The position numbers and the translations under genes are program-made. 64,000 bases of DNA from Anaerolineales bacterium HSG24 (GTDB lineage: Bacteria > Chloroflexota > Anaerolineae > 4572-78 > J111). This document shows positions 1-21,999 of the stretch, one piece after another. Location: the NCBI GenBank assembly GCA_030377895.1, contig JAUCGB010000002.1, positions 1 through 64,000 on the forward strand, read 5' to 3'. Position 1 is the stretch's first letter, and every line of letters begins with the position of its first letter. The notes below the pieces were generated by a model. It was not told where the DNA came from. It searched no databases and saw nothing but the letters and a program-made list of their open reading frames with translations.

Positions 1-1
1 C

Positions 2-1198: not shown

Positions 1199-1279
1199 CT
1201 TTAGGAATCGGAATCAAACGCGCAACTTATTTAGGACTCATTCCTTATTTAATTCCGATTTCTTAACTATACTATACTA

Positions 1280-1488: not shown

Positions 1489-1579
1489 AATTTGTTTGAC
1501 CTGACTGGTGGCCTCTTTTCGTCAGCAATAAGTATACATCGATTGATAATACAAAATAAATAAAAAAGGAGATAATAGA

Positions 1580-4216
1580 TTGACAGTTCAGCAACCCATC
1601 AAGTTTTTTTTTCTTATGCAAGCGGCAATCTTAAAGTTTTTGGGTAGATTTCCATTACGCGTGGTGCTTATTGTGCCGTTCGTCGTTCAGATTTTTGTTA
1701 TTGTAAGCCTTGTTGGCTGGTTATCGTTCCGTAGTGGGCAGCAAGCAGTAAACAATGTAGCCAGTCAATTGCGCCAGGAAATCACAGCCCGTATTGAAGA
1801 TACGCTAAACGTTTATCTGGAAACACCTCATGTGGTTAATCGGATTAACTTCGAGGCTATCCGGCTAGGACAGTTAGACCTACGCAATATCCCCAGTATA
1901 GAAAAATATCTGTGGAATCAGATACAACAATTTGATACAGTTAGCATGATTGCGTTGGGTACGGAGTTTGGCGATTACATTGAAATGCAACGATTCCAGG
2001 ATGGCGCGGTGAATATTGGGGTTAAAGATGAAAACACCAATGGTATCCTGCAAATTTGGGCTACAGATGCGCGCGGCAACCGTACTAAACTATTAGAAAA
2101 CATCTCGGATTATGACCCCCGAGTGCGCCCTTGGTATCTGGCCGCGGTAAAAACCAAAGTCCCAGTTTGGACAGAAATCTACCCCTACGTTTCAGATGAA
2201 ACATTGGCAATTTCTGCCAACCAACCCTTTTATAGCAACCGCAAAAAACTGGCGGCGGTTGCCAGTACAGATTTAACGCTCTCACAAATTAACAATTTTC
2301 TGGGCAGTCTTGAGGTAGGTAAAACAGGCCACACCTTTATTATGGAACGCTCCGGCCTGCTGGTCGCCTCGTCAACCGGCGAACCGCCAACCGTAGCTAC
2401 AAATTCTGAAGGAGAGTTAGAGCGCCTTAACGCCATTGACAGCCAAAATTTACTGATAAGCCAAACCGCCCAACATCTGGCGCAGCAGTATAACAGTCTG
2501 GATGAAATCACAAGCAATCGGCAACTGGATTTCAACATCGACGGGCAGACTTACTTTTTACAGGTAACTCCTTATAAGGATCCGCGCGGCATCGACTGGC
2601 TAATTGCAGTTGTTATTCCCCAATCCGATTTTATGACGCAAATTAATGCCAATGTTCAAACCACAATTATTTTATCGTTTATTGCTCTGGTTGTAGCCAT
2701 AATTGTTGGTATTATTACTACACGTTGGGTGGTTTATCCCATATTAAGCCTTAATATCGCCGCGGGCAATCTGGCCGCCGGCAACTGGAACCAGTCTATC
2801 CCCGTTGACCGCACCGACGAATTGGGGGGGCTTGCAATCTCTTTTAACAGCATGGCACGTCAATTAAAAGATAGTTTCGACACCCTGCAAGCCAGCGAGG
2901 AAAAATATCGCACCCTGTTTGAAGATTCCAGAGATATGATCTATATCAGCACCCCGGCCGGTCAAATTGTTGATGCCAACTCGGCTGGTTTAAGCCTCTT
3001 TGGTTATACCAAAGAAGAGTTGTTGGAGATAAACGCGCTAGACTTGTACGCCAATTCCGATGATCGTTCCAAATTTCGACAAGAGATAGAGCAGTACGGA
3101 GAGGTGAAGGATTTTGAAATCAAATTCCGCAAGAAAGACGGCACAGAATTAGATTGTATGATAACAGCCACGTTACGGCAGGCAGATGACGGCACGTTAT
3201 TGGGCTATCAAGGTCTTATCCGTGACATCACTGTCCACAAACGGGCTGAAATAGAACGACTGAAATTAACGGCTATTCAACAAGAACTCTCCATTGCCCA
3301 TGACATGCAGGGAAGTCTCCTGCCCGACTTTTACCCTGAATGGACTGATATCGAAGTCGTCTGTTACAGCATTCCGGCCAAAGATGTTGGTGGAGATTTC
3401 TATCAATATCACCAATTCGAGACCTTTGAGGTTTCAAAAACCGCTCAGAAATACGCCTTTGCTATCGGTGATGTCTCCGGTAAGGGTGTCTCTGCGGCGT
3501 TGCTCATGGCGACGAGTTTGTCTCAGTTTGATGCCTCGCTTACACTAGATTTGACACCCGCCGAGCGCATGACTCACCTCGATAAAACCATCTCTCCCTA
3601 CACGAAGCCGCGTCGGCAGAACTGCGCCATGTGCTATGTGGAATTGAGAATTATGAATTATGAATCCCCCGTCGGGGAGGCTTCGCGCTTAAGAATTAAA
3701 AACTCCTCTCCAGCGATGCTTCGCGCTGATGAGTTAAACATGGATAATGACGAAGTAGAGAAACAATTCTTAATTCGGGATTCAAAATTCTTAATTGATG
3801 TGGTGAACGCTGGTTGTATTCCGCCCTATATTAAACGAGTGGATGGCTCGGTTGAGTTTGATGAAGAGATGGGTGGTTTTTCCTTGGGGCAAGGGCTTGG
3901 GGCGAGGCATGGTTATCAGGCCCACACCATTGAATTATCGCCGGGCGACATGGTGATTCTGACTAGCGATGGCGTGGTGGAGGCCAATAATAACGCGGGT
4001 GACATGCTTGGCTTTGATAGGCTGATGGAGATTGTGCGGGGATTTGAGCCGGATACTAGCTTCGCGTCGCAAGACCTTCAAGGTTTCAAAAACCTTGAAG
4101 GTCTAAATCTGAGTGACGGGAACGCCATGCTGGAGCATCTCAAGCAAGAGGTGTTTGTCTTTACCGAAGGGGCGGAACAGCATGACGATATGACGATTGT
4201 GGTGGTCAGGGTGTAA
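1580..4216 (+). CDS. Membrane sensor SpoIIE phosphatase (dCache-HAMP-PAS-PP2C)
   Basis: An 878-aa protein. The TTG start is chosen because AAGGAG lies 8 bp upstream; the first ATG (1616) has no such site. Order: TM helix about residues 26-50, extracellular dCache-like sensor about 55-355 (with YDPRVRPWY typical of Cache), second TM about 357-379, HAMP about 380-432, PAS about 440-555 (EEKYRTLFEDS), and SpoIIE/PP2C about 570-878 with GGDFYQ, GDVSGKG, TSDGV and HDDMT. It would sense an external ligand and control a serine phosphatase in the cytoplasm, the family role being partner-switching control. The catalytic domain holds the in-frame inserts at 3646-3797 and 4072-4104. No antagonist or anti-sigma gene lies nearby. 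Confidence 0.9.
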   Translation: MTVQQPIKFFFLMQAAILKFLGRFPLRVVLIVPFVVQIFVIVSLVGWLSFRSGQQAVNNVASQLRQEITARIEDTLNVYLETPHVVNRINFEAIRLGQLDLRNIPSIEKYLWNQIQQFDTVSMIALGTEFGDYIEMQRFQDGAVNIGVKDENTNGILQIWATDARGNRTKLLENISDYDPRVRPWYLAAVKTKVPVWTEIYPYVSDETLAISANQPFYSNRKKLAAVASTDLTLSQINNFLGSLEVGKTGHTFIMERSGLLVASSTGEPPTVATNSEGELERLNAIDSQNLLISQTAQHLAQQYNSLDEITSNRQLDFNIDGQTYFLQVTPYKDPRGIDWLIAVVIPQSDFMTQINANVQTTIILSFIALVVAIIVGIITTRWVVYPILSLNIAAGNLAAGNWNQSIPVDRTDELGGLAISFNSMARQLKDSFDTLQASEEKYRTLFEDSRDMIYISTPAGQIVDANSAGLSLFGYTKEELLEINALDLYANSDDRSKFRQEIEQYGEVKDFEIKFRKKDGTELDCMITATLRQADDGTLLGYQGLIRDITVHKRAEIERLKLTAIQQELSIAHDMQGSLLPDFYPEWTDIEVVCYSIPAKDVGGDFYQYHQFETFEVSKTAQKYAFAIGDVSGKGVSAALLMATSLSQFDASLTLDLTPAERMTHLDKTISPYTKPRRQNCAMCYVELRIMNYESPVGEASRLRIKNSSPAMLRADELNMDNDEVEKQFLIRDSKFLIDVVNAGCIPPYIKRVDGSVEFDEEMGGFSLGQGLGARHGYQAHTIELSPGDMVILTSDGVVEANNNAGDMLGFDRLMEIVRGFEPDTSFASQDLQGFKNLEGLNLSDGNAMLEHLKQEVFVFTEGAEQHDDMTIVVVRV
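3646..3797. repeat. Long in-frame insertion in the phosphatase variable loop
   Basis: About 150 bp of repeat-like sequence (GAATCCCCCGTCGGGGAGGC, then AAGAATTAAAAACTCC and TAATTCGGGATTC pieces) between CYVELR and FLIDVVNAG. It is open in frame although it resembles intergenic filler. The paralogue at 8132 has a shorter, partly inverted version. Confidence 0.7.
4072..4104. repeat. 33-bp palindrome inside a coding region
   Basis: Same element and same codon position as 1054-1086 (AGACCTTCAAGGTTT and inverse). Confidence 0.8.
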
Positions 4217-4221
4217 AATTA

Positions 4222-4400
4222 CTGATGCTAATTTTTTAGCCGAAATCAACACTACAACGGATACTTAACTACGGAACGGATGGATTTTATTCGTATATAA
4301 TCACTGTAAATAGCAGAGAAATCTCGTTATTGACAAAAAATACCCGTGAGTTTTGAAGTACCCGCTGTAGTGTTCCCGCCAAAGATTCCGTTAGCGTCAG
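4222..4400. repeat. Repeat family A, uninterrupted copy (179 bp)
   Basis: Starts six bases after the preceding stop codon. Ends CTGATGCTAA and, inverted, CTGACGCTAAC; inner arms ACTACAACGGATACTTAA and GAAGTACCCGCTGTAGT are also complementary. No clear target duplication is seen. Confidence 0.7.
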
Positions 4401-4413
4401 TATTATTAATTAC

Positions 4414-4554
4414 CTTTGTACAGGACAAAAAAAGATTGAACTTGTTACAGAAGAAAAAAGGGACACAGATTAACACGGATACACACAGATAAGCCTAAAA
4501 AATCCGTGTTTATCAGCGTTTATCCGTGTCCTAACTGTTTTGTCCGGTACTTAG
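4414..4554. mobile_element. Family C MITE copy 1 (141 bp, 9-bp target duplication)
   Basis: Ends CTTTGTACAGGACAAAA and, inverted, CTAAGTACCGGACAAAA. Flanked on both sides by ATTAATTAC (4405-4413 and 4555-4563). Long inner arms built from CACGGATTAACACGGATA-type words make one hairpin. No open reading frame, so it must be moved by a transposase encoded elsewhere. Confidence 0.85.
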
Positions 4555-4559
4555 ATTAA

Positions 4560-4588
4560 TTACAAAGAATCGCGTTATGTGCTATAAT
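4560..4588 (+). promoter_or_regulatory. Candidate promoter for the solute-binding protein gene
   Basis: TTACAA (4560-4565), 17 bp, TATAAT (4583-4588), about 50 bp before the start codon. The -35 box lies partly in the target duplication at the edge of the family C element, so insertion may have altered expression. Confidence 0.4.
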
Positions 4589-4638
4589 ATAATTCAACAT
4601 ATTCCACAAACAAACTTTTAATATAAGGAGAATTAACT

Positions 4639-6288
4639 ATGCTCTATTTTCAGAATGATAAGACACACCATCCGGCCGTGTTAGACATGCAGAGTGATTT
4701 ACGAAAGGGCAAAATCAGCCGCCGTGAGTTTTTACGCTTTGCTACTCTGTTAGGCGTATCGGCCACAACGGCCGGGTTTATGGCCGGTTGTGGAAATCAA
4801 CCTGCCGCACCAAGTACACCGACTCCAAGCCCCATCAAACGGGGTGGAGTTATGAAAATTGGCACAGCACTTCAGGATGTATCCCATCCGGCGCGTTTAT
4901 CATGGATTGAAAGTGCCAACGTGTTGCGTCAGGTAGCTGAATATTTGACCGAAACGGGTGCGGATGGAATTACTCGCCCTTGGCTGTTGGAACGGTGGGA
5001 GGCCAATGAGGATGTCACCATGTGGACATTGTTCTTAAATAAGGGGATTAAATTTAATAATGGACAGGATTTCACTGTCGATGATGTGATTTTTAACTTT
5101 GAGCAATGGCTTGACCCGACGATTGAATCTTCGATGGGTGATTTACTTTCCTATCTTAGCCCTACTAATATCGAGCGGCTTGATGATTACACCATTCGTC
5201 TCCATCTTGACAGCCCCCAAATCGGCATCCCGGAGCATCTGTTTCATTACCCGGCCCTGATAATGTCGCGTGAGTTTGAAGGGGATTTTATCAAACAGCC
5301 GCTTGGTACCGGCCCATTCACTCTGGCTGAATACACCCTCGGTGATCAGGCTGTTTGCAAAAGACGAAGCGACTACTGGCATAAGGGGGCTGATGGCGCA
5401 CCGTTACCCTATCTTGATGAACTTATTTACATTGAATTAGAAGTAGAAGACCGAATTGAGGCCATACAAGGGGGAGGCATTGACACGTTATATACGCCCA
5501 CCCCGCAGGATTGGAAAGACCTAAAGGATGTGCCTGATGTCTCAGTGTATGATGTCAGCACTGCCCAAACATTTGTGTTGCGAATGAGAGTTGACCAGCC
5601 TCCGTGGAATGATGTTCGGGTTCGGCAGGCCCTCAAGTTGTGTCAAGACCGCCAGAAAATTCTTGATGGTTCCTATTCTGGGCAGGGTGAATTAGGCATA
5701 GATGCCCATGTTGCTCCCATCCATCCGGCCTATTGTGAGAAACCAATCCCTAAATACGACCCCGAAAAGGCCAAAGCATTGTTAGCTGAAGCGGGCTATC
5801 CAGATGGTCTACAGGTTAAGCTGACTACTAAAAATGATCGAAGTGAGCCGGAAATGTCTCGCATTTTACGAAATTTGGCCGCCCCGGCCGGGTTTGATAT
5901 TGAACTGAATATCATTGAACCGGCCAAATATTGGGAACAATGGACAGAAGTCGAGTTGGGTATCACCACCTGGACGCATAGGCCACTTGGCACGATGGTT
6001 TTGTCGCTTGCTTACACCTCTGATAAGGAGGGTAAGCCGGTCAGTTGGAATGAAACCCACTGGGTTGATGAGGAGTTTAACACTTTGCTGGGACAGGCTG
6101 AACGTACTCTGGACATCCCTAAACGGAGAGAGATTATGTGTCAACTGGAAGACATCATGCAAACACGCGGCCCGATTGGGATTAGCTATTGGCGAAAACT
6201 ATGGACGATTATTCGGACTGAATTCAAAAATGTGCGGGCACACCCAACAGCTTACGATCTTTTTTATGATGTGTGGAAGGATGTATAA
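4639..6288 (+). CDS. Solute-binding lipoprotein, SBP_bac_5 (oligopeptide/nickel type)
   Basis: A 549-aa extracytoplasmic binding protein. A twin-arginine signal (SRREFLRF, about residues 23-30) runs into a hydrophobic stretch and a lipobox MAGC, followed by a Pro/Thr linker; it should be exported by Tat and lipid-anchored. The body has the family features, for example FNNGQDFTVDDVIFNFE and GTGPFTLAEY. AAGGAG stands before the ATG. Members normally deliver peptides or similar solutes to an ABC permease, but no permease or ATPase gene is here. The next gene is a membrane dCache-SpoIIE sensor, so a role as ligand-presenting protein for that sensor is possible (inference). Confidence 0.9.
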   Translation: MLYFQNDKTHHPAVLDMQSDLRKGKISRREFLRFATLLGVSATTAGFMAGCGNQPAAPSTPTPSPIKRGGVMKIGTALQDVSHPARLSWIESANVLRQVAEYLTETGADGITRPWLLERWEANEDVTMWTLFLNKGIKFNNGQDFTVDDVIFNFEQWLDPTIESSMGDLLSYLSPTNIERLDDYTIRLHLDSPQIGIPEHLFHYPALIMSREFEGDFIKQPLGTGPFTLAEYTLGDQAVCKRRSDYWHKGADGAPLPYLDELIYIELEVEDRIEAIQGGGIDTLYTPTPQDWKDLKDVPDVSVYDVSTAQTFVLRMRVDQPPWNDVRVRQALKLCQDRQKILDGSYSGQGELGIDAHVAPIHPAYCEKPIPKYDPEKAKALLAEAGYPDGLQVKLTTKNDRSEPEMSRILRNLAAPAGFDIELNIIEPAKYWEQWTEVELGITTWTHRPLGTMVLSLAYTSDKEGKPVSWNETHWVDEEFNTLLGQAERTLDIPKRREIMCQLEDIMQTRGPIGISYWRKLWTIIRTEFKNVRAHPTAYDLFYDVWKDV

Positions 6289-6296
6289 TCAGTAGT

Positions 6297-6436
6297 GACA
6301 AGTGCTTCGTCACTTATCACTTATCACTTATCACTTGTCACTTATCACTTATCACTTGTCACTTGTCACTTATCACTTATCACTTGTCACTTGTCACTTA
6401 TCACTTGTCACTTATCACTTGTCACTTGCCACTTAT
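6297..6436. repeat. Short tandem array of TCACTTATCACTTG-type units
   Basis: About 140 bp of near-perfect 8-9-base units (CACTTATCA / CACTTGTCA). It fills the gap between two genes and stays open in the downstream frame, which makes a false N-terminal extension for the next gene. Related arrays sit at 21995-22030, 22222-22262 and 58151-58186. Confidence 0.85.
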
Positions 6437-6447
6437 GGTCTAAAATA

Positions 6448-8646
6448 ATGTACAAAAAAACGCCACGTAAACTCTTTAGCGGTTTAACGGCCAAACTAAT
6501 TTTGGCCGTTTTGCTTGTTTCGCTCATCCCCTTGAGTTTACTGGCGTTTCTCAATAATCGTAATACCCAAACCATATTAATCGAAAACGCTAACCAATCT
6601 TTATCCGCCGCTGCCTCACAAATAGCGGCCAATCTCGACATATTTTTCAAGATTAACTTAGATAATCTCAAAGTGGAGGCCCAGCTACCGACCTTAATTA
6701 CCTATTTGAGTTTGCCACCCGACCAACGAGCCGGCAGTCTCGCCGAAGAGGCAGCCTTGGCCACTTTGCAAGGGCTAAGGCGCAAAAACCGGATATTTAT
6801 CACCTCGTATGCTTTGTTAGACTATGAAGGGCAGAACGTGCTGGATACCAACCCTGATGGTATTGGACAAGACGAATCTCACGAAGAATATTTTCAAAGG
6901 CCGATAGAATCGGGATTGCCGGAGGTATCACATATTACCCTAGCCAACCCCCATAATCCACATTGGGAAGACATGATTATCCATTTCAGCAACCCCATCC
7001 GAGATACCAACCGGGGAGAGACGATTGGCGTTTTACGGATACGCTACAAAGCGGCGGCTTTGCAACAACTGGTTGTCGCCAATAATGGTTTTGCTGGTGA
7101 AAAATCATACGCCATCCTCTTTGATGAAAACTTGATCTATTTAGCACATGGTACCGCCCCGAATCTGATTTTCAAAACGGTGCAACCACTAGACTCAGAC
7201 CGGATAGCCCATTTACAAGCTCTGGACCGCTTACCTGATCTGCTACCCGATAACCTCTCGACCAACTCATCCGATCTGGCCGATAAGTTAGCCAACGCTA
7301 CTTTTGAACCCATTTTTACCGCCAAATTACCATCAACTGATGATACCTCAACAAGTGATGGGCTTAATTTGATTGTGGTCAAAGAGTTAAAAACACACCC
7401 CTGGTTAGTCATCTTCGTCCAACCGGAGACCGTATTTCTAGCTCCCATCAACGCCCAAACAAGAAATACGATTTATCTGGCCATCGCCATTGGATGCGCG
7501 GTTGTGGCAGTTGCCTTTATGGCCGGACGCACTCTGGCGGCCCCACTTCTGGAACTGACTGAAGCTGTTAGCCGCTTCACCGCCGGTGATTTAGAAGTCC
7601 GGGCCAATATCAAATCGAATGATGAACGGGAGACTCTGGCCGCCAGTTTCAACACTATGGCCGAACAGGTGGGTAGTTTGTTGAAAAATCTGGAGGAGCG
7701 CACCCATGAGCTAGAGGCTGAGATTATTGAGCGCGAACGGGCCGAATCCCAGCTAGTACAGTTATCCGTCATCGAGCGAGAGTTGGTGATCGCTCAACAG
7801 ATACAACAAAACCTTTTACCCCCGACAAAACCTAATTGGCCTGATCTTGATGTAATCTGTTTTAGTAATCCGGCTCGTGAAGTGGGGGGCGATTTATACA
7901 GTTATCATGAATTTCCATTTGCTCAAGAATTCTACGCCTATGCTTTTGCCATTGGTGATGTCTCCGGCAAAGGCGTGTCCGCCGCTTTGCTAATGGCAAT
8001 CGGTCTCTCTCAGTTTGACGCTTCGTTAACCCTCGGCCTCTCCCCGGCTGAACGCATGATCTATCTGGATGAGGCCATTTTGCCCTATACCAAACTCCAA
8101 CACCAGAACTGTGCTATGTGTTATGTTGAATTAAGAATGAAGAATGAAGAATCCCCTGTCGCTGAAAATCAATTCAAAATTCTTAAGCGCGAAGCCTCCC
8201 CGACGGGGGATTCAAAATTCTTAATTGATGTGGTGAACGCCGGTTGTATTCCACCTTACATCAAACGTGCAGATGGTTCGGTTGAGTTTGATGAAGAGAT
8301 GGGAGGTTTTGCTTTGGGGCAAGGACTTGGATCCATGCACGGTTATCAGGAACATACTATTGAACTATTCTCTGGCGACATGGTGATTTTGACCAGTGAT
8401 GGCGTGGTCGAGGCCAACAACGAGGCGGGCGACATGCTCGGCTTTGAGCGGCTAGAGCAGATTGTTAGGGAATTTGAGCCGGATACTAGCTTCGCGTCGC
8501 AAGACCTTCAAGGTTTCAAAAACCTTGAAGGTCTAAATCTGAACGGCGCGGAGGCTATGCTAGAACATCTCAAGCGAGAGGTGTTTGCCTTTACCAAAGG
8601 GGCGGAACAGCATGATGATATGACGATGGTGGTGATTCGGGTATGA
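6448..8646 (+). CDS. Membrane sensor SpoIIE phosphatase (dCache-HAMP-PP2C)
   Basis: A 732-aa protein when started at ATG 6448; the open frame reaches back to 6295, but those 51 codons only translate the short tandem array and are rejected. TM about 12-34, dCache-like sensor about 35-330 (ALLDYEGQNVLDTN), TM about 343-365, HAMP to about 415, a coiled coil, then SpoIIE/PP2C with GGDLYSY, GDVSGKG, TSDGV and HDDMTMVV. Like its paralogues it should dephosphorylate a serine-phosphoprotein in response to an external signal. It lies directly behind a solute-binding lipoprotein. The 3' 250 bp are nearly the same as in the genes ending at 1198 and 15810. In-frame inserts at 8132-8228 and 8502-8534. No clear Shine-Dalgarno site. 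Confidence 0.88.
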   Translation: MYKKTPRKLFSGLTAKLILAVLLVSLIPLSLLAFLNNRNTQTILIENANQSLSAAASQIAANLDIFFKINLDNLKVEAQLPTLITYLSLPPDQRAGSLAEEAALATLQGLRRKNRIFITSYALLDYEGQNVLDTNPDGIGQDESHEEYFQRPIESGLPEVSHITLANPHNPHWEDMIIHFSNPIRDTNRGETIGVLRIRYKAAALQQLVVANNGFAGEKSYAILFDENLIYLAHGTAPNLIFKTVQPLDSDRIAHLQALDRLPDLLPDNLSTNSSDLADKLANATFEPIFTAKLPSTDDTSTSDGLNLIVVKELKTHPWLVIFVQPETVFLAPINAQTRNTIYLAIAIGCAVVAVAFMAGRTLAAPLLELTEAVSRFTAGDLEVRANIKSNDERETLAASFNTMAEQVGSLLKNLEERTHELEAEIIERERAESQLVQLSVIERELVIAQQIQQNLLPPTKPNWPDLDVICFSNPAREVGGDLYSYHEFPFAQEFYAYAFAIGDVSGKGVSAALLMAIGLSQFDASLTLGLSPAERMIYLDEAILPYTKLQHQNCAMCYVELRMKNEESPVAENQFKILKREASPTGDSKFLIDVVNAGCIPPYIKRADGSVEFDEEMGGFALGQGLGSMHGYQEHTIELFSGDMVILTSDGVVEANNEAGDMLGFERLEQIVREFEPDTSFASQDLQGFKNLEGLNLNGAEAMLEHLKREVFAFTKGAEQHDDMTMVVIRV
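8132..8228. repeat. In-frame insertion in the phosphatase variable loop
   Basis: Sequence with AAGAATGAAGAATCCCC, an inverted GCGCGAAGCCTCCCCGAC piece and TTCAAAATTCTTAATTG at the same loop as 702-773 and 3646-3797, with the palindromic core here reversed. Confidence 0.65.
8502..8534. repeat. 33-bp palindrome inside a coding region
   Basis: Same element and codon position as 1054-1086. Confidence 0.8.
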
Positions 8647-8742
8647 TGTGAGACGTATTGCGTAAGATGTAATACGCAACAGAACTATCCCTACGATTGC
8701 CAAACGCGCAACTTATTTAATTCCGATTCCTAACTTGTAGAC

Positions 8743-8882
8743 CTAAGTACCGGACAAAACAGTTAGGACACGGATAAACGCGGATAAACACGAATTTTTT
8801 AGGCTTATCTGTGTGTATCCGTGTTAATCCGTGTCCCTTTTTTCTTCTGTAACAAGTTCAATCTTTTTTGTCCTGTACTCAG
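8743..8882. mobile_element. Family C MITE copy 2 (140 bp, 9-bp target duplication)
   Basis: Inverted relative to copy 1. CTTGTAGAC occurs directly before (8734-8742) and directly after (8883-8891) the element, a clean 9-bp target duplication. Ends CTAAGTACCGGACAAAA and, inverted, CTGAGTACAGGACAAAA. Confidence 0.88.
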
Positions 8883-8919
8883 CTTGTAGACAATAATTTA
8901 TCAAAAGGAGATAAACAAT

Positions 8920-9651
8920 ATGTTTGAGTGGTTGAAAAAAATATTTTCACAAGAAGAAAAATCAAAGGAAATTACCTTGCCAGATGAGGAAGAAGAAGAA
9001 GAGGACGAAGAGAACGAAGAAGAAGAGGAGAGTGACTATATCGAGATTCGAAATATAGGTAAGGACGAAGAGGACATACTTGTTTTGGACATCGATAGGG
9101 TACCCCCTGACGAACGGGAAGACCTTCATGCTACAGTTACAGAACTCACTGATTTACCATTTTTTGAGGATAATGTAGAACATTTCTATACCTTAAAATA
9201 TGCGAAACAGATTCATCAATGCCCTCGTTGTGGTGATTTGCTTCAACAGCAGTATGCCGATTGGGTTTATGCCACCAAGGCTGGCAAAATGAGAATTATG
9301 CTTGCTCCAGCAGGATATTTCTGTCTTAAATGTCCGACGGTTATTGTTGACGAAAATTTGATTAAAAGCGGCATCGATGGAAATTATAAATATCGGGAAA
9401 TCTTAAGCATTGCTCATGATGATGGTGTACTTTCGGGTATGGCAACCTTAAATGGAAAAGAGGTTGTTCTTCTTGTCCGTGATGAGGCTGAGGAAGACGT
9501 TAGCTGGGTATCACCAGATTACGTACCATCAGAGCATGGTAGAAAGAAAATTTCTTCTAACCGAAAATCCACCCAGCGAAAGCGAATGCAAAAGAACTCT
9601 AAAAAACAGCAACGAGCTAAACGGAAAAAGAAGAAACGAAAACGGAAATAA
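8920..9651 (+). CDS. Unknown protein: acidic N-terminus, zinc-ribbon-like core, basic tail
   Basis: A 243-aa protein, not recognised. AAAAGGAGAT precedes the ATG at good spacing. Residues about 20-45 are almost all Glu/Asp. The middle has two cysteine pairs, CPRCG and CLKC, about 35 residues apart, which fits a zinc ribbon or similar metal knuckle. The last 40 residues are Lys/Arg-rich (KKKKRKRK), a likely nucleic-acid binding tail. Such opposite charge at the two ends could self-shield the basic tail. It is monocistronic, set between a family C and a family D element. Its role is unknown; binding of RNA or DNA is only a guess from composition. Confidence 0.7.
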   Translation: MFEWLKKIFSQEEKSKEITLPDEEEEEEDEENEEEEESDYIEIRNIGKDEEDILVLDIDRVPPDEREDLHATVTELTDLPFFEDNVEHFYTLKYAKQIHQCPRCGDLLQQQYADWVYATKAGKMRIMLAPAGYFCLKCPTVIVDENLIKSGIDGNYKYREILSIAHDDGVLSGMATLNGKEVVLLVRDEAEEDVSWVSPDYVPSEHGRKKISSNRKSTQRKRMQKNSKKQQRAKRKKKKRKRK

Positions 9652-9699
9652 AGAGCATGATATGAAGGATGCCGATGTACCGTAAGTTAAACGCGCGGT

Positions 9700-9854
9700 C
9701 TCAGTACCCGACAGAAAAGTTAGCCAAAACTAATTAGCACAGAGTTTCACAGAGGAACACAGAGTTTCACAGAGAAAAAGCGAATTATTTTTTCCTCTGT
9801 GCCCCTCTGTGTTCCTGTTTTAGCTTTCCCTAAACCACTTTGTCGGGTAGCAAG
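9700..9854. mobile_element. Family D MITE-like palindrome, copy 1
   Basis: Ends CTCAGTACCCGACAGAAAAG and, inverted, CTTGCTACCCGACAAAGTGG; inner arms made of CACAGAGTTTCACAGAG words. No target duplication remains here; copies at 33282 and 38237 show 8-bp duplications. Confidence 0.75.
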
Positions 9855-9901
9855 ATTTTGACCTGTACAAAGAATGATAAATCAATTTCGGAGAAAATAT
9901 A

Positions 9902-12900
9902 ATGATAAAAACAGCCTTAAAACTATTCATATCTCTCATCATATTCGTCTCATTCGTCACAACGACTCAGGCGCAGGAAGGTACGATTGCCGAAACGCTC
10001 AAGTTTGACCATGTTTCGGTTGATGACGGACTATCGACCAATGTGACCTATTTTGCCATGCAGGATAACAGCGGGTTTATGTGGTTTGGCACGGCGGATG
10101 GTCTAAACAAGTATGACGGTTATGAGTTTACGGTCTATCGGCAAGACCCCGAAGAGCCGACTACCATCAGCAACAATCGGGTGAACTATATCCTGCAAGA
10201 CCAATCTGGAACATTGTGGGCTGGCACGGCGGGCGGTTTCAATCGCTTCGACAGGGAGACCGAGCGGTTTACTCGTTATACCCATGAGGCCGACAACCCA
10301 AAAAGTCTGAGTCACAACTTCGTCAACGTCATTTACGAGGATCAGACGGATAACTTATGGGTTGGTACGAGTGCGGGCTTAGACCTGTTTGATCGTGAGA
10401 CTGAAACCTTTACCCATTATCATGCTGGTGACATAGAAGCCGATAAACATCAAGCGGTGACGGCTATTTATCAGGATCAGGCCGGGACTTTGTGGATTGG
10501 TACGGATGTGGGCTTGAAAAAATTTGCGATAGAGAGTGAAACATTTACCCCTTATCGGCATGATGAAAACGATCCCACCAGCATCAGCCATGACACGGTG
10601 AATGTCATTTATGAAAATGTTTCGGGGCAGTTGTGGATCGGTACGGTGGGCGGCTTGAACAGATTCAATCGTGAGACTGACACCTTCACCCGTTATCAAG
10701 CCGATGAGACGGACCCGTATAGTCTCAGCGATAACATGGTGACCACGATTACCGAGGATGCGACTCAACAGTTATGGATTGGTACGAGTGGCGGTGGCGT
10801 GAACATATTCGATTCCAGCACCGAAACCTTTACCCCTTACCTGCCTGATCCCAACAACCCTTATAGCCTGAGTGAAGTTGCAGTCAACTCCATTTACGAA
10901 GATCATACTGGCACATTGTGGATAACAACTCTTGCTAGTGGATTGAATAGGCTTGACCCACAAGCCGAAAAATTTGCCCATTATAGCTATAACGAAAATA
11001 ATCCTCTGAGCCTGAGTGACGACAAAATCAGAATCATCCATGAAGACCATGCCGGACTGCTGTGGATTGGCACTGTGGGGGGAGGACTGAATAGTTTTGA
11101 TTATGAAACCAAAACCTTTACCCATTACATGCATGATGAAACCGACCCGCACAGCCTTAGCCATAATACGGTTGTCTCCGCTTATGAGGATAGTCAGGGT
11201 CGATTATGGGTCGGCACATGGGGTGGTGGTTTGAATCGGTTTGACCGAGAGACGGGGCAGTTTATCCGTTATTTGCCCGATGAAACTGATGTGGAGAGTA
11301 TCAGCAACAAGATAATCGCCTATATTTATGAGGACAGTACGGGGGCGTTGTGGCTTGGCATGTGGGGTACAGGCATGGACAAATTCAACCCGCAGACCGA
11401 GCAGATTGTCCATTATTTGCCCGATGAGCAAAATCCCAACAGCATCAGTCACGGTCGAGTCATTTATATTTACGAAGATAGTCTTGGGGCGTTGTGGTTT
11501 GCTACTTATGGTGGGGGGTTGAACAAGTTTGACCGAGAAACCGAAACCTTCACCCTGTATCAGCATGATGATGACCAGCTTGATAGCATTATTGATGATT
11601 TGATTCGGGTTATTTATGAAGACAGTCATGGCACGTTATGGATTGGTACAAACGGAGGGCTGGATAAATTTGATCGAGAAACCGAAACCTTTACCCATTA
11701 CCGGACTCCAAACGGTTTACCCAATAATGTTATTTATGGTATTTTGGAGGATGAGGCCGGAAATCTGTGGCTCAGTACCAATAATGGCCTTTCTAAATTT
11801 AATCCGCAGGAGGAGACTTTTAGAAACTATGATGTCAGGGATGGTTTGCAGGGGGATGCTTTTGCAAATTGGGCGCATTACAAGAGTAAGCGGGGCGAGT
11901 TGTTCTTTGGTGGGAACAATGGCCTTAATGCCTTTTTCCCCGACCAAGTGACCGATAATCCCCATGCTCCGCCTGTCGTGTTGACCGATTTTAGTCTGTT
12001 TAACTTGCCGGTTGGCATTGGTGATGATGATTCTCCCTTGCAGAAACATGTCAACCAAACAGATGACATGAGCCTGACGTATGAGCAGTCGGTTTTCAGT
12101 TTTGAATTTTCCGCTCTAAACTATACCGTGCCGGAAAAGAACCAGTATGCTTACAAAATGGAGGGATTTGATAAAGATTGGACTTATGTGGATAGTAGCC
12201 GACGTTTTGCCACTTACACCAATCTGGACGCTGGTACATACAATTTTCGGGTTAAAGGCTCTAATAATGACGACGTATGGAACGAGGAAGGTGCAAGCAT
12301 CAAGATTACCATTACTCCTCCGTGGTGGGAAACATTATGGTTTAGAGGGACGATGTTACTGCTGGTAGTAGGGTTAGTTTCGGGGGGAGTCTATTGGCGC
12401 ACTCATGCCATTCAGGTGCAAAATCTTATGCTAGAGGCACAGGTCGCCGAGCGAACCAAAGAGTTACAAGAAGCCAAAGAGGTGGCCGAAGTTGCCCAAG
12501 GTGAGGCCGAAATCGCTCGCGAAAAAGCCGAAATCGCCCAAGACAAAGCCGAGGTCGCGAATCAGGCAAAAAGTAGTTTCTTAGCCAACATGAACCATGA
12601 ACTCCGCACCCCGCTAAATGCTATTATCGGTTTTTCTCAGGTGATGATTCGTACCCAAACCCTTTCCTCAGAGAATCTGGAAAATATCGGCATCGTCAAC
12701 CGGAGCGCAGAACATCTGCTGACCCTCATCAATCAGGTGCTTAACCTCTCTAAAATTGAGGCGGGGCGAGAAACTCTCAACAAAAAGAATTTTGATTTGC
12801 AACTCTTGCTCAATGATTTAGAGGACATGTTTAATCTTAAAGCAGACGACAAACGGTTACAACTTTCTTTTGAGTGTGGCGACGAAGTTCCCCGACATAT

Positions 12901-15944: not shown

Positions 15945-17255
15945 ATGTATAAACGATTCTGTTTTAATTTGATTGTACTATTGTTGGGGATATGGATAGC
16001 TGGCTGTAATTCAACCTCTGCCCCCCAACCCACCGCACGTCCAGCATCGCCAACGGAGGATCCAACCATCACCTTAACGATGGCATCTTGGCGTTCTGAC
16101 GATGCAGAACAAATGTCTCGTATTTTCGCTAAATTTAATGAGCATTATCCCAATATCAAGATTGTATACGACACGGGTTATCAACCGGATTATGACACAC
16201 CTTTGCTGGCTCAATTGCAAAGTGGTACAGGCCCAGATTTAATCTATCTACGCTCTTTTGATGACTCGCGGTTACTGTTTGAGCAAGGTTTTCTGGAAAC
16301 GCTTAGTGATTTGCCCGGTTTGTCTGAAAATTTTACCCCAGTCATGCAATCTGCTTGGGCTACCGATGAGGGCGTATCTTATGGTGTGCCTTATATCGCC
16401 ACATCCCACGGGGTTTATTACAATGTTGATCTATTCAACGAATTAGGTCTCGATGTCCCGACCAGTTGGGAAACCTTTCTCAGCACTGCCCAAACCATTC
16501 AGGAGGCTGGTTACATCCCTATTGCTAACTCATCGGGCAGTAAATGGGCGATGGCCGAACTAGTTTTTATGAATTTAGCCCCTAATTTTATTGGTGGACG
16601 CGAAGGACGATTGGCCTACCTATCGGGAGAACGTTGTTTAAATGATGAACATGTTGTCGCCGCCTTCCAAGCCATTAAAGATATTGCTCCTTTTTTACCC
16701 CCCAATCATAGTGGCCTAAAGAATCTTGATAGTGTCCAGCTTTTTGCCCAAGGTAAAGCGGCCATGATGTTGGATGGATCATGGGATATTCATTTAATTG
16801 AAGCTCAATCGCCCACCTTTGCTTGGGATGTGTTCGCCCCGCCGCCGCCCCATAATCAACCGGCCTACCTAACCTTTCATCAGGATGTGGGTATGGGATT
16901 AAACGCCGCCTCACCCCATAAAGCAGAAGCTAGAAAGTTTTTAGAGTGGATGACCACCGCAGAATTTGCTGAGTTATTAGGGAACGAACTGCCCGGTTTT
17001 TATCCTATGCACACCAATCCCCCAACCCTAAGCAATAAGCATGCCAACAGCTTTTTGGCTTTAAACCAAGGGCGGGGTCTTGATGTACGGTTTGTTTGGG
17101 ATAAATTGATGGCTAACTCGCCCAATGCCTATATCTTAGTGATGGATGGCACCATTGCCGTAGCTAATGGTGAGCAATCACCACAAGAGGCCGCCGATGC
17201 GTTACAAACTAATTTAGAACAATGGTTTGAGCCAGCCCAAAATTGTAATAAATAA
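15945..17255 (+). CDS. Solute-binding lipoprotein, family 1 (sugar type)
   Basis: A 436-aa binding protein with signal peptide and lipobox IAGC at about residues 18-21, then a Pro/Thr/Ala linker. The body fits SBP_bac_1/8: MASWRSDDAEQMS, YDTGYQPDYDTPLLAQLQSG, GVPYIATSHGVYYN and a C-terminal MDGTIAVANGEQSPQEAAD. AAAAGGAGAT precedes the ATG. Members bind mono- or oligosaccharides for ABC import, but no permease or ATPase gene is near. It sits immediately before a HAMP-type hybrid kinase, so it may supply the ligand signal (inference, parallel to the gene at 4639). A family D fragment begins on the base after its stop. Confidence 0.9.
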   Translation: MYKRFCFNLIVLLLGIWIAGCNSTSAPQPTARPASPTEDPTITLTMASWRSDDAEQMSRIFAKFNEHYPNIKIVYDTGYQPDYDTPLLAQLQSGTGPDLIYLRSFDDSRLLFEQGFLETLSDLPGLSENFTPVMQSAWATDEGVSYGVPYIATSHGVYYNVDLFNELGLDVPTSWETFLSTAQTIQEAGYIPIANSSGSKWAMAELVFMNLAPNFIGGREGRLAYLSGERCLNDEHVVAAFQAIKDIAPFLPPNHSGLKNLDSVQLFAQGKAAMMLDGSWDIHLIEAQSPTFAWDVFAPPPPHNQPAYLTFHQDVGMGLNAASPHKAEARKFLEWMTTAEFAELLGNELPGFYPMHTNPPTLSNKHANSFLALNQGRGLDVRFVWDKLMANSPNAYILVMDGTIAVANGEQSPQEAADALQTNLEQWFEPAQNCNK

Positions 17256-17481: not shown

Positions 17482-20400
17482 ATGTTCAATATCTCCCGCC
17501 TTCAAATCGGTACAAAAATCATTTTAGGGTATTTGGTTTCGGTTTCTCTGATGGTTGTGATTGGGGTACTTGTAGCGACGCGTCTGACACAGGTTACGGA
17601 AACCGTTAACGATTTAACCACAGTTCAAGCCGTCCAACTCGACCTTTCAAACATGATGGTCGAGCAAATTGTGTTGACTCGTCTTTATGCCAATCGTTAC
17701 ATCCACCATCAAAACCAACAGGATTTAGATGCCTTTAACCACTCTTTTAACCAGTTACAACAGCTATTAATTCAGGCAGAAGAAACGGTCATCAATCCTG
17801 AAAACGTTGCCTTAGATACGTTACATCAAACGCTCCCTGCTTATGGACAGGCTTTTGCTGAAATCACCAATTTGTTAGCAGAACGCTCACAGATTCGCAC
17901 CGAAACATTTGTAACCCAAGAGTATTTTATAGTGTCAAAATTTTCTGCTCTGCGGGTGACGGTTGATTATGCTAGCTCACCGGAGTTGTATATCGCCTTA
18001 AACAATGTGCAAAATCTTTTTTTAAATTTGCGCCTGAATTTGCTTAACTATCTTAATACGGGTGATGAACGTTTTGCCGCCCTATTTGACCTAAACTATT
18101 TGGAATTTCAACAAGATTTAGCTGTGTTTAGGCAAACTTCAACCAATTCCATCCAGCATCAAATTACAGACGAGATAGAAGCGGGGTTAGCAATTTATGT
18201 TGAGGGATTCCAAACCGTTCAGACTGGTCAGATTCGATTAAAAATTCTTGAGCAGAAAACGATGAAACATCTGGAATCTGAAATGAGCCAAGCGGCGTTT
18301 GATATGGCGACTCAAGCTAGGCAGGAATTTCAAGCGAAGAATGAGGCTACCAATACCTTTGTCATGCAAACCCAAATCATCTTACTCAGTGCAATTGCCA
18401 GCGCGGTTATCATTGGCTTGGGGTTAGGTTGGATAATTTCACGTCGACTTACTGCGCCGTTACATCAGGTGGCTCAAACTGCCCAACAAATTGCCAATAT
18501 GGATATTAAAGCTCTATCAACAGAACTGATTTCACTCTCCCAAGGTAGACCACCCCAATCAATTAGCCTGATTGCCTTGCCACTGGAAATAAACACCCAA
18601 GATGAGGTGGGGCAGATGGCTCAGGCATTTAATCAGATTATTTTTAGTTTACAAACAGCTGAAACATCGTTTGCTGATATGTCTGTTTACCTTAATGAAA
18701 TGGCCCAAGCCGCCCATAGTGTGTCCCAAGGTAATTTAGCTGTGGATGTTCCGACCCGTTCTGTGGAGGATGTGTTAGGTAATGCTCTCGCCAACATGGT
18801 GGTTGATTTACGCACCACTCAAACTGAACTACAACAACATCAGGAACAATTGGAAACGCGAGTTATGGAACGAACTAAAGCCTTGGGCGAGAGTGAAGCG
18901 CGATTTCGAGGTTTGTCTGAATCGACCTTTGAAGGGGTTGTGATTCATGAGAAAGGGATGATTTTGGATGTAAATCAGGCTATGGTTGACATGTTTGGCT
19001 ATCAAGCTGATGAATTTATCGGGCAACGGGTTGATAAATTTTTGACTCCAGAATCTCATAAAATGGCTATCAAGCATATCGCTGAGAATAGTGAAGAGCC
19101 GTATGAAGTAGAGGTAGTTCGTAAAGATGGTGTTTTATTCCCAGTGGAGATACATGTAAAAATCGTACCTTATCAAGACCGTAAGGTTAGGGTGGTCGCG
19201 CTACGGGATATTACGTTGTGGAAACAGAGCGAGGAAGCCTTACAACAGGCTAAAGAAAAAGCCGAAGTTGCCAACCAAGCCAAAAGCACCTTTCTGGCAA
19301 ACATGAGCCATGAATTACGCACTCCTCTCAATGGCATTTTGGGCTATGCTCAAATTCTACAACGCCCGCATGATGCCATCACCCAAACCGATGGGATCAA
19401 CCTGATTTACCGGAGTGGCAACCACCTGCTGACTTTGATTAATGATATTCTCGACCTGTCCAAAGTTGAGGCTCATGAAATGGAGCTTTTTCCAGAGGAG
19501 GTAAATTTTTCAAACTTCATGAAGGATGTGGGGGGCATCATCCGCATGCGGGCACAACAAAAGAACCTGCATTTTCTCTATGAGCCGGATGTGACCCTGC
19601 CCCAAATCATCAAAGCTGATCCAACCCGCCTGCGCCAAGTACTGCTCAATCTGCTTGGTAACGCGGTCAAGTTTACGGATGAAGGAGGCGTAACTTTGCG
19701 GGTTACGGTGAGCAGGCAACCCGCCCTCCCCCTAACCCCCTCCCAGAGGGAGGGAGAACTAGCTTCCCCTTTGGGGGGGCTAATCCCATCTCATTCCCAA
19801 ACTCCCCCACTGCCTCGTTCCCAAACTGAGTTTGGGAACGAGATAAATCAGCGACTCAGCGACTCGGATGACCCAGCGGTTTCAGTTGGCAACGCTGAAT
19901 CGCTGAATCAAGGAATTGCTGAATCGCCTGAATCATTTTTGCGCTTTGAAGTTTCCGACACCGGCCCCGGTATTCCAGACGACCAGTTGGAGAATATCTT
20001 CAAACCATTTCAACAGACGGGCGAGGCCGGACAGCGAGCCGAAGGCACTGGTCTTGGTTTGTCCATCAGCCAACAGTTGGTGGCTTTGATGGGCGGTGAG
20101 TTGCAGGTTAAGAGCGAGGTTGGTCAAGGATCAGTTTTCTGGTTTGAAGCCACCTTCTCGGTGATGGATGAATTGCTGGTCAAAGAGACACCGCTTGCCC
20201 GAGAGATTGTGGGGTATCAGCTTGCCTCATCTACTGACATGCATGGCGCGCGTAAATTGAAAATCTTGGTCGTAGACGACAAAGAAGATAACCGTCTGGT
20301 TCTGCTCAAGCTATTAGAGCCGTTAGGGTTTGAGGTAACTCTAGTCATCAATGGCCAAGAGGCGGTTGATCAAGTGCAAACCGTCAATCCCGATTTGATT

Positions 20401-20898
20401 CTAATGGATTTGGTCATGCCGGTGATGACTGGATTTGAGGCGGTCAAGCGGATTCGCCTTATGCCGGAGTTCAAGGATATACCGATTATTGCGGTGTCGG
20501 CCAGTACCTTTGAGATGGATAGGAGCCAGAGTATACGAGTGGGCTGTCAGAGTTTCATCCACAAACCGGTCAAAATAGAGATATTATTTGAGGCAATGGA
20601 AGAGTATCTGCCAATTATCTGGCAATATGAGACTAAAAAACAGTCGCCCAAAGATACACCCTCTGTCTCGGCTCTCTTGGATCAGCCGCTGATTTCACCG
20701 CCTCAAAAAGAGCTAGAAGCTTTGTATGAGCTGACAATGTTTGGTAATATGACTAAAGTACAAAAAAATGCTCAACAACTGAAAATTCTAGACGAAAAAT
20801 ATATTCCCTTTACCACCAGAATAGAGGAGCATGCTCAGGAATTTGAGGATGAAGCAATTTTGCTATTATTGGAGCAATTTATGGAACGCGAAACGTGA
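17482..20898 (+). CDS. Hybrid histidine kinase (TM sensor-HAMP-PAS-HK-receiver)
   Basis: An 1138-aa protein. TM about 13-35, helical periplasmic sensor about 40-290, TM about 296-318, HAMP about 320-430, coiled coil, PAS about 465-580, HisKA with His610 in SHELRTPLN, HATPase about 715-890, receiver with Asp976 in LMDLVMP. Between the N-box region and the G1 box (DTGPGIP) the ATPase carries about 65 extra residues (19715-19920) made of repeat-like DNA, including a perfect palindrome at 19814-19842; the flanking motifs are intact. The sensor reads an unknown signal, possibly from the solute-binding protein upstream. Output may go to the REC-LuxR gene next door. No clear Shine-Dalgarno site. Confidence 0.9.
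19814..19842. repeat. Palindrome inside the kinase ATPase domain
   Basis: CTCGTTCCCAAACTG and its inverse AGTTTGGGAACGAG, preceded by a second hairpin CCTCCCAGAGGGAGGG-like at about 19738-19755. Related GTTCCCAAAC palindromes lie outside genes at about 24424-24453, 25527-25552 and 30487-30518. Confidence 0.75.
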
Positions 20899-20899
20899 A

Positions 20900-20946
20900 G
20901 TTGGTTGAGCTTGTCGAAACCAACGGCCTTCGACAGGCTCAGGCAA
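20900..20946. repeat. REP-like TTCGACAGGCTCAGG palindrome
   Basis: GAGCTTGTCGAA and CTTCGACAGGCTC arms form a hairpin right after the kinase stop. The same word family is at 25296-25425, 32180-32234 and 47847-47900. Confidence 0.6.
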
Positions 20947-20991
20947 CATGGAACGCACTACGCACCACGTTCTACGTTCCACATTTTTTTT

Positions 20992-21999
20992 ATGAATACA
21001 ATTTTGATTATTGACGATAACCGTGAGAATCTCCATGTGGTAGTAGATTACCTGAACAGCCTAGATTTTGTACCTCTGACAGCCCGGAATGGCCAGACAG
21101 GTTTGAAACGGGCTAAAATAGCGCAACCTGATTTGATTCTCTTGGATATTCAGATGCCGGGTATTGATGGCTTTGAAGTCTGTCGCCGTCTTAAAGCAGA
21201 TGAAGCCACCCGACAAATTCCGGTCATCTTCATGACCGTCATGGAAAATGTCGGGGACAAGGTGAAAGGCTTTGGCGTAGGAGGTGTGGACTATATCACC
21301 AAACCTGTACAGATTGAAGAGCTGATGGCCCGCATTAAAGCGCATCTACTCATTCGCAATTTGCGACAGCAGTTGCAAACTCACAATCAACAGCTAGAAG
21401 AACGGGTGGCAGAACGAACAGCTAGTCTGAAGATGGAAATTGCCGACCGTAAAAAATATCAGCAGGAAAAAGATAAACTGTTTGAGATGGTTCACAGTCA
21501 AAGTGAACAACTTCGCAATTTGACCAGTTTGATTATTAGCTCTCAACAGACGAATAAGCAAGATTTAATGAATGACCTGAACCTACATATCGCCCAAAAC
21601 TTGATCGTTTTGCAGACTAATCTCGATATTGCCCAAACCTTACTGGATTACTCAGATGATGACCTCAAACAAAACCGATCATTGTTGCAGGCTCATATTC
21701 AAAAATCGGGCCAAGTAGTGCAACAAATGCAAGATTTCTTGGCTACAATGACCGAAAACCTAGCTATACCTTCTTCAAACCTCTCTGAAAATCTTCTTTT
21801 AAAGTTGACCACACGAGAACGGGAACTGTTACAACTGATGGTTGATGGCAAATCACCTACTGAAATTGCCGAACTACTCCAGATATCCTCTAAAACTGTC
21901 TATTCACACCGTTCTCGTATTATGAAGAAATTAGGTGTCAACAACATTACCGATTTAACGCACGTTGCAGTCGAAAATATACGAATACACGAAGAGTGA
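20992..21999 (+). CDS. Response regulator, receiver plus LuxR-type HTH
   Basis: A 335-aa protein. The ATG at 20992 is chosen; an earlier TTG at 20905 would only translate the REP-like palindrome. Receiver about 4-120 with Asp52 in LLDIQMP and Lys in YITKPV, a long coiled region about 125-265 (EERVAERTASLKME) and a C-terminal GerE/LuxR HTH about 270-330 (LTTRERELLQLM, ISSKTVYSHRSRIMKKL). It should bind DNA when phosphorylated, most simply by the hybrid kinase ending 93 bp upstream. The stop TGA is the first unit of a GTGAATA array. No Shine-Dalgarno site is visible. Confidence 0.9.
   Translation: MNTILIIDDNRENLHVVVDYLNSLDFVPLTARNGQTGLKRAKIAQPDLILLDIQMPGIDGFEVCRRLKADEATRQIPVIFMTVMENVGDKVKGFGVGGVDYITKPVQIEELMARIKAHLLIRNLRQQLQTHNQQLEERVAERTASLKMEIADRKKYQQEKDKLFEMVHSQSEQLRNLTSLIISSQQTNKQDLMNDLNLHIAQNLIVLQTNLDIAQTLLDYSDDDLKQNRSLLQAHIQKSGQVVQQMQDFLATMTENLAIPSSNLSENLLLKLTTRERELLQLMVDGKSPTEIAELLQISSKTVYSHRSRIMKKLGVNNITDLTHVAVENIRIHEE

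Follow-up and report, generated by a model that had tools for sequence, protein, structure and literature searches.

The window, a 64,000-nucleotide stretch of DNA from Anaerolineales bacterium HSG24, encodes two solute-binding proteins (SBPs), each followed by a membrane sensor. We consider it likely that each SBP and its adjoining sensor form a multi-part receptor, with the SBP as the ligand-binding subunit. The SBPs stand before receptors, not transporters, and the same receptor families lie behind varied SBPs elsewhere; therefore, the SBPs most likely signal to the receptors. The dCache-HAMP-SpoIIE sensor at 6448 is referred to as S1 and the hybrid kinase at 17482 as S2.

Table 1 Features of the two SBP-sensor loci, in window positions.
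Feature	Coordinates	Strand	Basis and remarks
SBP_bac_5 family solute-binding lipoprotein	4639..6288	+	ORF call and Pfam; lipobox in a Tat-like signal sequence; transporter genes absent nearby
7-bp tandem repeat array TCACTTA, 18 copies	6310..6436	+	Between the SBP gene and the S1 gene
S1 sensor: TM - dCache - TM - HAMP - SpoIIE phosphatase	6448..8646	+	ORF opens at 6295; Pfam and model
SBP_bac_1 family solute-binding lipoprotein	15945..17255	+	ORF call and Pfam
S2 sensor: TM - helical bundle - TM - HAMP - PAS - HisKA - HATPase - REC hybrid kinase	17482..20898	+	ORF call and Pfam
REC-LuxR response regulator directly after the S2 kinase	20905..21999	+	ORF call and Pfam

ORF calling recovered both SBP genes, the S2 gene and an S1 frame of 6295-8646, and Pfam agreed with the sequence-only reading in placing a dCache-HAMP-SpoIIE sensor and a TM-HAMP-PAS hybrid kinase after the SBPs. 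The matches were to SBP_bac_5 for the 4639 protein (247.5 bits), SBP_bac_1 for the 15945 protein (137.4 bits), dCache_1 (48.3 bits, cut-off 45), HAMP, and SpoIIE for S1, and HAMP-PAS-HisKA-HATPase-REC for S2. A lipobox-bearing signal sequence was read by eye in each SBP; the one in 4639 is Tat-like (RR). The ATG at 6448, the start proposed earlier for S1, is the likely translation start because the ORF that opens with GTG at 6295 crosses the repeat array; a homologue in a relative (G001) starts at the matching place. Between the two TM segments of S2 (read by eye) is an extracytoplasmic helical region with a weak 4HB_MCP_1 match, and thus there is a surface for an SBP to touch there too. The REC-LuxR regulator is, from its position, the probable partner of the S2 kinase. 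STAS and HATPase_c_2 partner-switch genes are found at 79.6-80.4 kb on the same contig.

We profiled the neighborhoods of relatives, as the sequence-only reading had proposed, and found the linkage conserved for both pairs and widespread in the S1 family. Among 66 S1-type sensors of the class (66 of 80 places were analyzed; 12 of the 14 left out were among the lowest-scoring), an SBP gene stands directly before 25 (position -1), and a co-directional SBP lies within 3 kb of 31. At the same loci, an SBP precedes none of 74 other signaling genes at -1 (Fisher P 3.5e-10 against the 25 of 66, which is indicative because the sequences are related), nor any of 12 sensors of another dCache family used as a control. 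SBP linkage was also detected at 54 of 80 S1 loci in named genomes, a set that overlaps with the class set such that the counts are not additive. The cyanobacterial loci were linked in 35 of 38 cases, mostly with a 9-bp gap. ORFs were called mechanically, and intervening or spurious ORFs put three NMT1 genes at -2 instead of -1 (L176, L184, and L194); the genes upstream of two other sensors (L185 and L208) are not SBPs by Pfam. SBP family names in these counts come from phmmer against Pfam-confirmed representatives. No SBP lies at -1 in 41 of the 66 sensors or within 3 kb in 35, and 14 of 15 pseudomonadotal loci are without an SBP neighbor; therefore, the S1 domain can work unlinked. The family is spread over Chloroflexota, Cyanobacteria, Myxococcota, and one betaproteobacterium.

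Both sides of the S1 pair vary. Six Pfam families occur among the linked SBPs, and the outputs behind the S1 domain include SpoIIE, histidine kinase, GGDEF, adenylate cyclase, and HD. SBP labels are clustered on the S1 tree (17 changes compared with 28.9 when shuffled; none of 200 shuffles was as low). An SBP_bac_5 clade of the window and three relatives (G001, G011, and G005) is matched by an S1 clade of the same four, with SH-aLRT of 100 each, and in G005 the two genes are on different contigs. The gene pairs, their domains, the conserved linkage, the swapping of partners and outputs, and the matched clades are all direct observations. We are evenly divided on whether the S1 dCache is a general SBP adaptor, that is, one docking domain for both SBP structural classes and almost any output, with new receptors arising by exchange of the SBP gene before it or of the output after it. 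The SBP families concerned would be SBP_bac_1, SBP_bac_5, NMT1, PBP_like_2, Bmp, and Peripla_BP_6, and the outputs SpoIIE phosphatase, kinase, GGDEF, adenylate cyclase, and HD.

We infer an SBP-sensor complex, together with its ligand, sign of regulation, and downstream target, along the following lines. The lipoprotein SBP would be anchored outside the membrane, bind its solute, and dock on the adjoining sensor at its extracytoplasmic domain (the dCache at 6448 or the helical bundle at 17482). Docking or its loss would then be passed on as a change in the sensor via TM2 and HAMP. At 6448, the SpoIIE-type phosphatase would dephosphorylate a STAS anti-anti-sigma protein, freeing a sigma factor, and at 17482 a phosphorelay would lead to the LuxR-type regulator at 20905. 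The earlier suggestion that these SBPs present ligands to sensors and do not serve transport is supported by the conserved linkage, with physical presentation as its predicted step.

As the sequence-only reading had also noted, neither SBP has ABC transporter genes nearby. On the window's contig there is no PF00528 permease (28 matches, all on other contigs of this 75% complete genome) and no PF00005 ATPase above the cut-off (a single sub-cut-off match at 27140). Permeases and ATPases were not found within 6 kb for 23 of the 25 adjacent SBP-S1 pairs, with many of the contigs short and detection limited. At one locus (L162), an NMT1 SBP, an ATPase, a permease, and an S1 sensor lie in one row, and therefore some SBPs may do both jobs. 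Dual use, in which the SBP serves a distant transporter as well as the sensor, is a possible though minority explanation, and it has a precedent in CBP, which acts in chitin uptake and on ChiS (available part of PMC10208484); transport and signaling by one SBP is also stated in the available part of PMC10384115. Against dual use, L162 is the only one of 66 S1 loci with a transporter in line, and a separate paralogue of the 4639 SBP (61-62% identity) lies beside permeases and an ATPase on another contig (C168) of the same genome.

The S1 model (pLDDT 89.5) has a dCache fold (DctB, Z 22.9; PscC, Z 20.3). It also resembles the dCache part of Dret_0059 (PDB ID: 5ere; Z 20.0, rmsd 2.6, 211 aligned), a solved single chain in which an SBP part of Peripla_BP type is fused to a tandem PAS-like (dCache) domain, whereas the S1 pair is encoded by separate genes. 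Cytosine is listed as bound in the 5ere dCache part. This, and the many S1 sensors that have no SBP neighbor, would suit a dCache that senses its own small ligand while the neighboring SBP binds or senses the same compound for another purpose. We regard this as unlikely, as six SBP families accompany the one dCache family and the Arg and Asp of the neighboring control family (R-x-R-P-W-Y and Asp) are replaced in S1 in an alignment of 147 rows, duplicates included. Arg, aromatic, and Asp residues form the ligand-binding motif of the amino acid or amine sensors dCache_1AA and dCache_1AM (available part of PMC10104139), a motif that we applied by its published description. A joined model, in which the SBP stop was ignored and 4639-7509 translated into a single chain (2 SBP rows and 27 sensor rows), gave pLDDT 61.6 and pTM 0.47 with the SBP part mostly below 50 pLDDT, and is neutral on docking.

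The C168 paralogue would also fit a purely transport role, in which the SBPs feed transporters encoded at other sites (the Dpp/Opp-like system of C168 in the case of 4639) and lie beside sensors through co-regulation. Permeases are sometimes common to several SBPs in ABC systems, for example MppA with Opp. We find this slightly less probable again, as the linkage persists across changes of SBP family and sensor output, the SBP and sensor clades agree even when the genes are unlinked, and most adjacent pairs showed no transporter genes within the limits given above. Co-varying permeases had been named as a counter-test, and the transport-type SBP_bac_5 nearest relatives of 4639, the C168 paralogue among them, lie beside permeases and an ATPase and fall outside the sensor-linked clade. 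The 4639 SBP is below the cut-offs of the DppA, NikA, and OppA equivalogs (best 121.5 compared with 600). Chance adjacency is highly improbable: both gene classes are numerous, and an SBP precedes 40 of the 672 remaining co-directional genes at the loci, many of which were fetched for their SBPs, but the empty controls, the cyanobacterial linkage, and the label clustering contradict it.

A known receptor of SBP-sensor type is the Vibrio AI-2 receptor LuxP-LuxQ, in which a stand-alone SBP (LuxP) serves a membrane sensor with a tandem PAS-like extracytoplasmic domain (LuxQ). The S1 pair is likewise a stand-alone SBP and a sensor; however, LuxP is a class I SBP while those with S1 are mostly class II, and S1 outputs are SpoIIE or other. 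The LuxQ-periplasm Pfam family had no match in the S1 proteins scanned (E 0.001), a comparison with the family profile, and LuxQ is absent among the matches listed for the S1 model, which is compatible with kinship. TorS combines a helical sensor region with a hybrid kinase, and S2 has the same layout. In TorT-TorS, AioX-AioS, AgtB-AgtS, and CuaD-CuaS, the SBP gene adjoins the sensor gene and the SBP acts on the sensor (available parts of PMC11113362, PMC5908839, and PMC10384115). Each of these has one SBP and one kinase, whereas S1 combines with six families of SBP and with five or more types of output. In Vibrio chitin sensing, the membrane hybrid kinase ChiS is controlled by the periplasmic chitin-binding SBP CBP (PMC10208484, in part), and the 4639 SBP matches a solved chitin oligosaccharide binding protein (1zty) at 1.5e-11. 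Apo-CBP represses ChiS, whereas the window SBP adjoins a dCache-SpoIIE phosphatase. In our best reading, the window pairs would be SBP-dependent receptors on the lines of LuxPQ, TorTS, or CBP-ChiS, built as a mix-and-match module.

Receptors that depend on an SBP are known in principle; what looks new is a variation on them, namely the S1 family, the breadth of its SBP partnerships, and SpoIIE as its output. The available part of PMC9602780 does not list a SpoIIE type among SBP-activated receptors. Such receptors have so far been known system by system, and S1 is a single sensor-domain family with six SBP families and many outputs, which names dozens of receptor pairs for testing. It would place a SpoIIE phosphatase, and with it a sigma-factor partner switch, under proposed SBP control. 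S1 linkage is also a pointer to those 'orphan' SBPs that serve in sensing instead of import, and unlinked SBP-receptor pairs could be predicted from the matched clades.

In the S2 family, SBP linkage was found in 6 of 22 sensors (of 24 places found), and the four sensors closest to S2 each lie behind an SBP_bac_1 with 56% identity or more; one of the four (G002) has SpoIIE in place of the kinase output. Identification of the 17482 kinase as TorS (TIGR02956) was rejected on score (341.3 bits compared with a 676.5 cut-off), with the best stretch in the kinase part. A profile search of PDB sequences with S2 gave no match to TorS, a sequence-level result compatible with a shared fold, and weak matches to ancestral PcpI (1.6e-7) and 2yfa (0.0018). 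Two S2 relatives (L209 and L211) precede apparent CheW genes, as read from the sequences.

The two solute-binding protein (SBP) lipoproteins of the window each precede a gene for a membrane sensor, and ORF and Pfam calls agree for both pairs. The sequence-only reading had placed these SBPs away from ABC transporter genes, and this was confirmed: a genome-wide Pfam search found no PF00528 permease on the window's contig (all 28 matches are on other contigs) and no PF00005 ATPase match over the cut-off there. Against the NCBIfam equivalogs DppA, NikA and OppA, the first SBP scored below each cut-off. S1 and S2 denote the sensor modules of the first and second pairs.

SBP-sensor gene pairs in the window
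Feature	Position	Source
SBP_bac_5 protein, 549 aa	4639-6288	Pfam
S1 sensor ORF: dCache_1, HAMP, SpoIIE	6295-8646	Pfam
SBP_bac_1 protein, 436 aa	15945-17255	Pfam
S2 sensor: HAMP, PAS, HisKA, HATPase, REC	17482-20898	Pfam
REC-LuxR regulator, after S2 sensor	20905	Pfam

An array of 18 copies of the 7-bp unit TCACTTA (6310-6436) lies between the SBP and S1 sensor genes and leaves the frame open from a GTG at 6295. Because this stretch is a repeat, the first sensor start is most likely 6448, the start named originally. Gain or loss of copies could change how far apart the two genes lie or how they are coupled.

Of 61 genomes searched, 35 hold relatives of the SBP_bac_5 protein (E 1e-40), whose neighbourhoods were inspected. 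The adjacency is kept in two relatives' genomes, G001 (sensor 74%, SBP 86%) and G011 (52%, 70%), where an S1 sensor directly follows the SBP; the G011 sensor differs in its output, with PAS and an end without assigned domain. Most other SBP_bac_5 relatives adjoin a pair of permease genes and a gene for a fused ATPase, as does a paralogue (61-62% to the 4639 SBP) on C168, another contig of the window's genome. The three sensor-linked SBPs form a clade with one protein of genome G005 (SH-aLRT 100), and their three sensors form a clade with one from G005 (SH-aLRT 100). In G005 the SBP and S1 genes are on separate contigs, and the 13-kb stretch with the SBP has no permease and one ORF with weak ATPase similarity (22%). 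The taxonomic family of the window's organism accounts for 12 of the 61 genomes searched, and the same four of these 12 appear in both clades, a chance of about 1 in 495 draws by simple arithmetic that ignores relatedness.

Across the class Anaerolineae, S1 is present in 57 of 396 genomes, at 80 places; linkage counts rest on the 66 places fetched with their neighbours, window included. L numbers denote individual loci here and below. A same-strand SBP gene sits immediately upstream in 25 of 66 loci, with families named by Pfam on representatives: NMT1 (9), SBP_bac_1 (8), SBP_bac_5 (3), Bmp (3), Peripla_BP_6 (1) and PBP_like_2 (1). NMT1 is the second gene upstream in three further loci, two have an SBP downstream only, and 35 lack any SBP within 3 kb. 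Of the 25 SBP-linked loci, two (L183, L202) showed a permease or ATPase gene no more than 6 kb away, on the opposite strand. The controls gave no SBP immediately upstream of other signalling genes in the same loci (0/74) and none among co-directional upstream genes of a control dCache family, that of window protein 1580-4216 (0/12; seven further members had an opposite-strand neighbour and four an edge). SBP labels required 17 changes on the S1 tree versus 28.9 when shuffled (0 of 200 shuffles as low); SBP_bac_5 partners fall into one group, as do Bmp partners, and NMT1 takes nine changes.

At locus L162 (2107-7957), alone among the 66, genes for an NMT1 SBP, an ABC ATPase and a permease stand in that order before the S1 sensor; the arrangement may represent a stage between transport SBPs and receptor SBPs. 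At L164 (2097-9041) the order Bmp SBP, S1 sensor, Peripla_BP_6 SBP and second apparent membrane sensor looks like two tandem SBP-sensor pairs.

A scan of named genomes revealed 80 S1 loci, 54 with an SBP immediately upstream (NMT1 42, SBP_bac_1 7, SBP_bac_5 2, Bmp 2, Peripla_BP_6 1); this set overlaps with the 66 loci of the class. By phylum, the counts were 35/38 in Cyanobacteriota, 16/25 in Chloroflexota, 2/2 in Myxococcota and 1/15 in Pseudomonadota, and the SBP-S1 gap is 9 bp in most cyanobacterial loci. Outputs behind S1 (Pfam) include SpoIIE (window, Leptolyngbyaceae L302), kinase (L296), hybrid kinase (L153, L263, L322), GGDEF (L260), adenylate/guanylate cyclase (Microcoleus L252), HD (L149), GAF (L161, L164, L197) and, in a gammaproteobacterial locus with no SBP, GGDEF-EAL (L311). 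L302 is an independent NMT1-S1-SpoIIE case. The SBP is absent from most of the S1-type loci L311-L328 (mostly gammaproteobacteria), where a conserved ~650-aa gene on the opposite strand adjoins most of the sensors.

S2 was detected in 19 of the same 396 genomes, at 24 places. The adjacency of the second pair is kept too, with SBP_bac_1 directly upstream of S2 in the window, G001, G002 and G148 (SBP/sensor identities of the last three to the window pair 97%/94%, 60%/39% and 56%/35%); in the G002 sensor, SpoIIE replaces the kinase as output. S2 is preceded by Peripla_BP_4 in L210 and by a different SBP_bac_1 in L214, and 16 of 22 S2 loci have no upstream SBP. Relatives of the SBP_bac_1 protein (35-38%) lie beside apparent sugar permeases, read from sequence, in L076, L081 and L082. 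An FGE-sulfatase (formylglycine-enzyme-like) gene occupies the partner SBP position at L208 (4611-5681). Single ~1,300-aa ORFs at L079 (8076-11924) and L081 (7951-11877) each contain three tandem SBP_bac_1-like regions, followed in L081 by a GH9 cellulase and two apparent permeases.

The extracytoplasmic part of S1 is a dCache domain in the predicted model (46 sequences, pLDDT 89.5, pTM 0.80), which matched DctB (Z 22.9, rmsd 3.1, 252 aligned), PscC (Z 20.3) and the C-terminal part of 5ere (Dret_0059; Z 20.0, rmsd 2.6, 211 aligned). 5ere combines an SBP and a dCache-like domain in a single chain. In the control dCache family, all 17 members have both Arg, the Trp and the Tyr of the motif D-x-R-x-R-P-W-Y, and 12 of them keep the later Asp. 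The S1 alignment (147 rows, some duplicate) mostly reads DES-xx-DYF there, with Ser for the first Arg in 108 rows; 112 rows have R/S/K where the later Asp would be. For amino acid receptors, PctA among them, the motif positions named are R126, W128, Y129 and D173 (PMC10104139), and we infer that these are the same columns as the control-family Arg/Trp/Tyr/Asp. Joined SBP-sensor structure prediction gave no reliable model.

For many kinases activated by an SBP, the SBP gene lies next to the kinase gene, and orphan SBPs have been described (PMC11113362). SBP activation is regarded as general: 13 of 22 SBP families in one set are known to touch receptors, and the receptor types named are chemoreceptors, sensor kinases, diguanylate cyclases/phosphodiesterases and Ser/Thr kinases (PMC9602780). 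The term 'three-component system' is in use (PMC10384115), AioX has been described (PMC5908839), and sensor domains with an SBP fold have been reported (PMC3831638). Titles and abstract openings in the open-licence literature yielded no description of the S1 family or its SBP linkage, which is weak evidence of novelty.

The SBP-sensor finding is real, and the original proposal of a signalling role was a good one. As read from gene order and sequence, the pairs are most likely SBP-dependent receptors with unusually broad partner choice. The lipoprotein SBP would bind solute outside the cell and dock on the sensor encoded beside it, which would pass the signal on by way of TM2 and HAMP. ChiS of V. 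cholerae is repressed by CBP without chitin and activated by chitin-bound CBP (PMC10208484), so the effect on the sensor here could be of either sign. The SpoIIE output of 6448 fits partner switching: the contig also carries STAS and HATPase_c_2 genes at 79,642-80,381, beside a further SpoIIE match at 80,544; the 6448 phosphatase may act on the STAS protein from this region.

Window 1-15810 encodes four SpoIIE proteins whose sensor parts differ. In the three compared (1580, 6295, 13966), the SpoIIE ends are 64-72% identical, which suggests recent shuffling of one output module. An ORF of 243 aa (8920-9651) with an acidic stretch near its start and a Lys/Arg-rich end had no Pfam or NCBIfam match. 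The 10-bp unit CACAGAGTTT is repeated in 3.7 copies at both 9738-9774 and 17285-17321, in each case a short distance before a hybrid-kinase gene (9902 and 17482).
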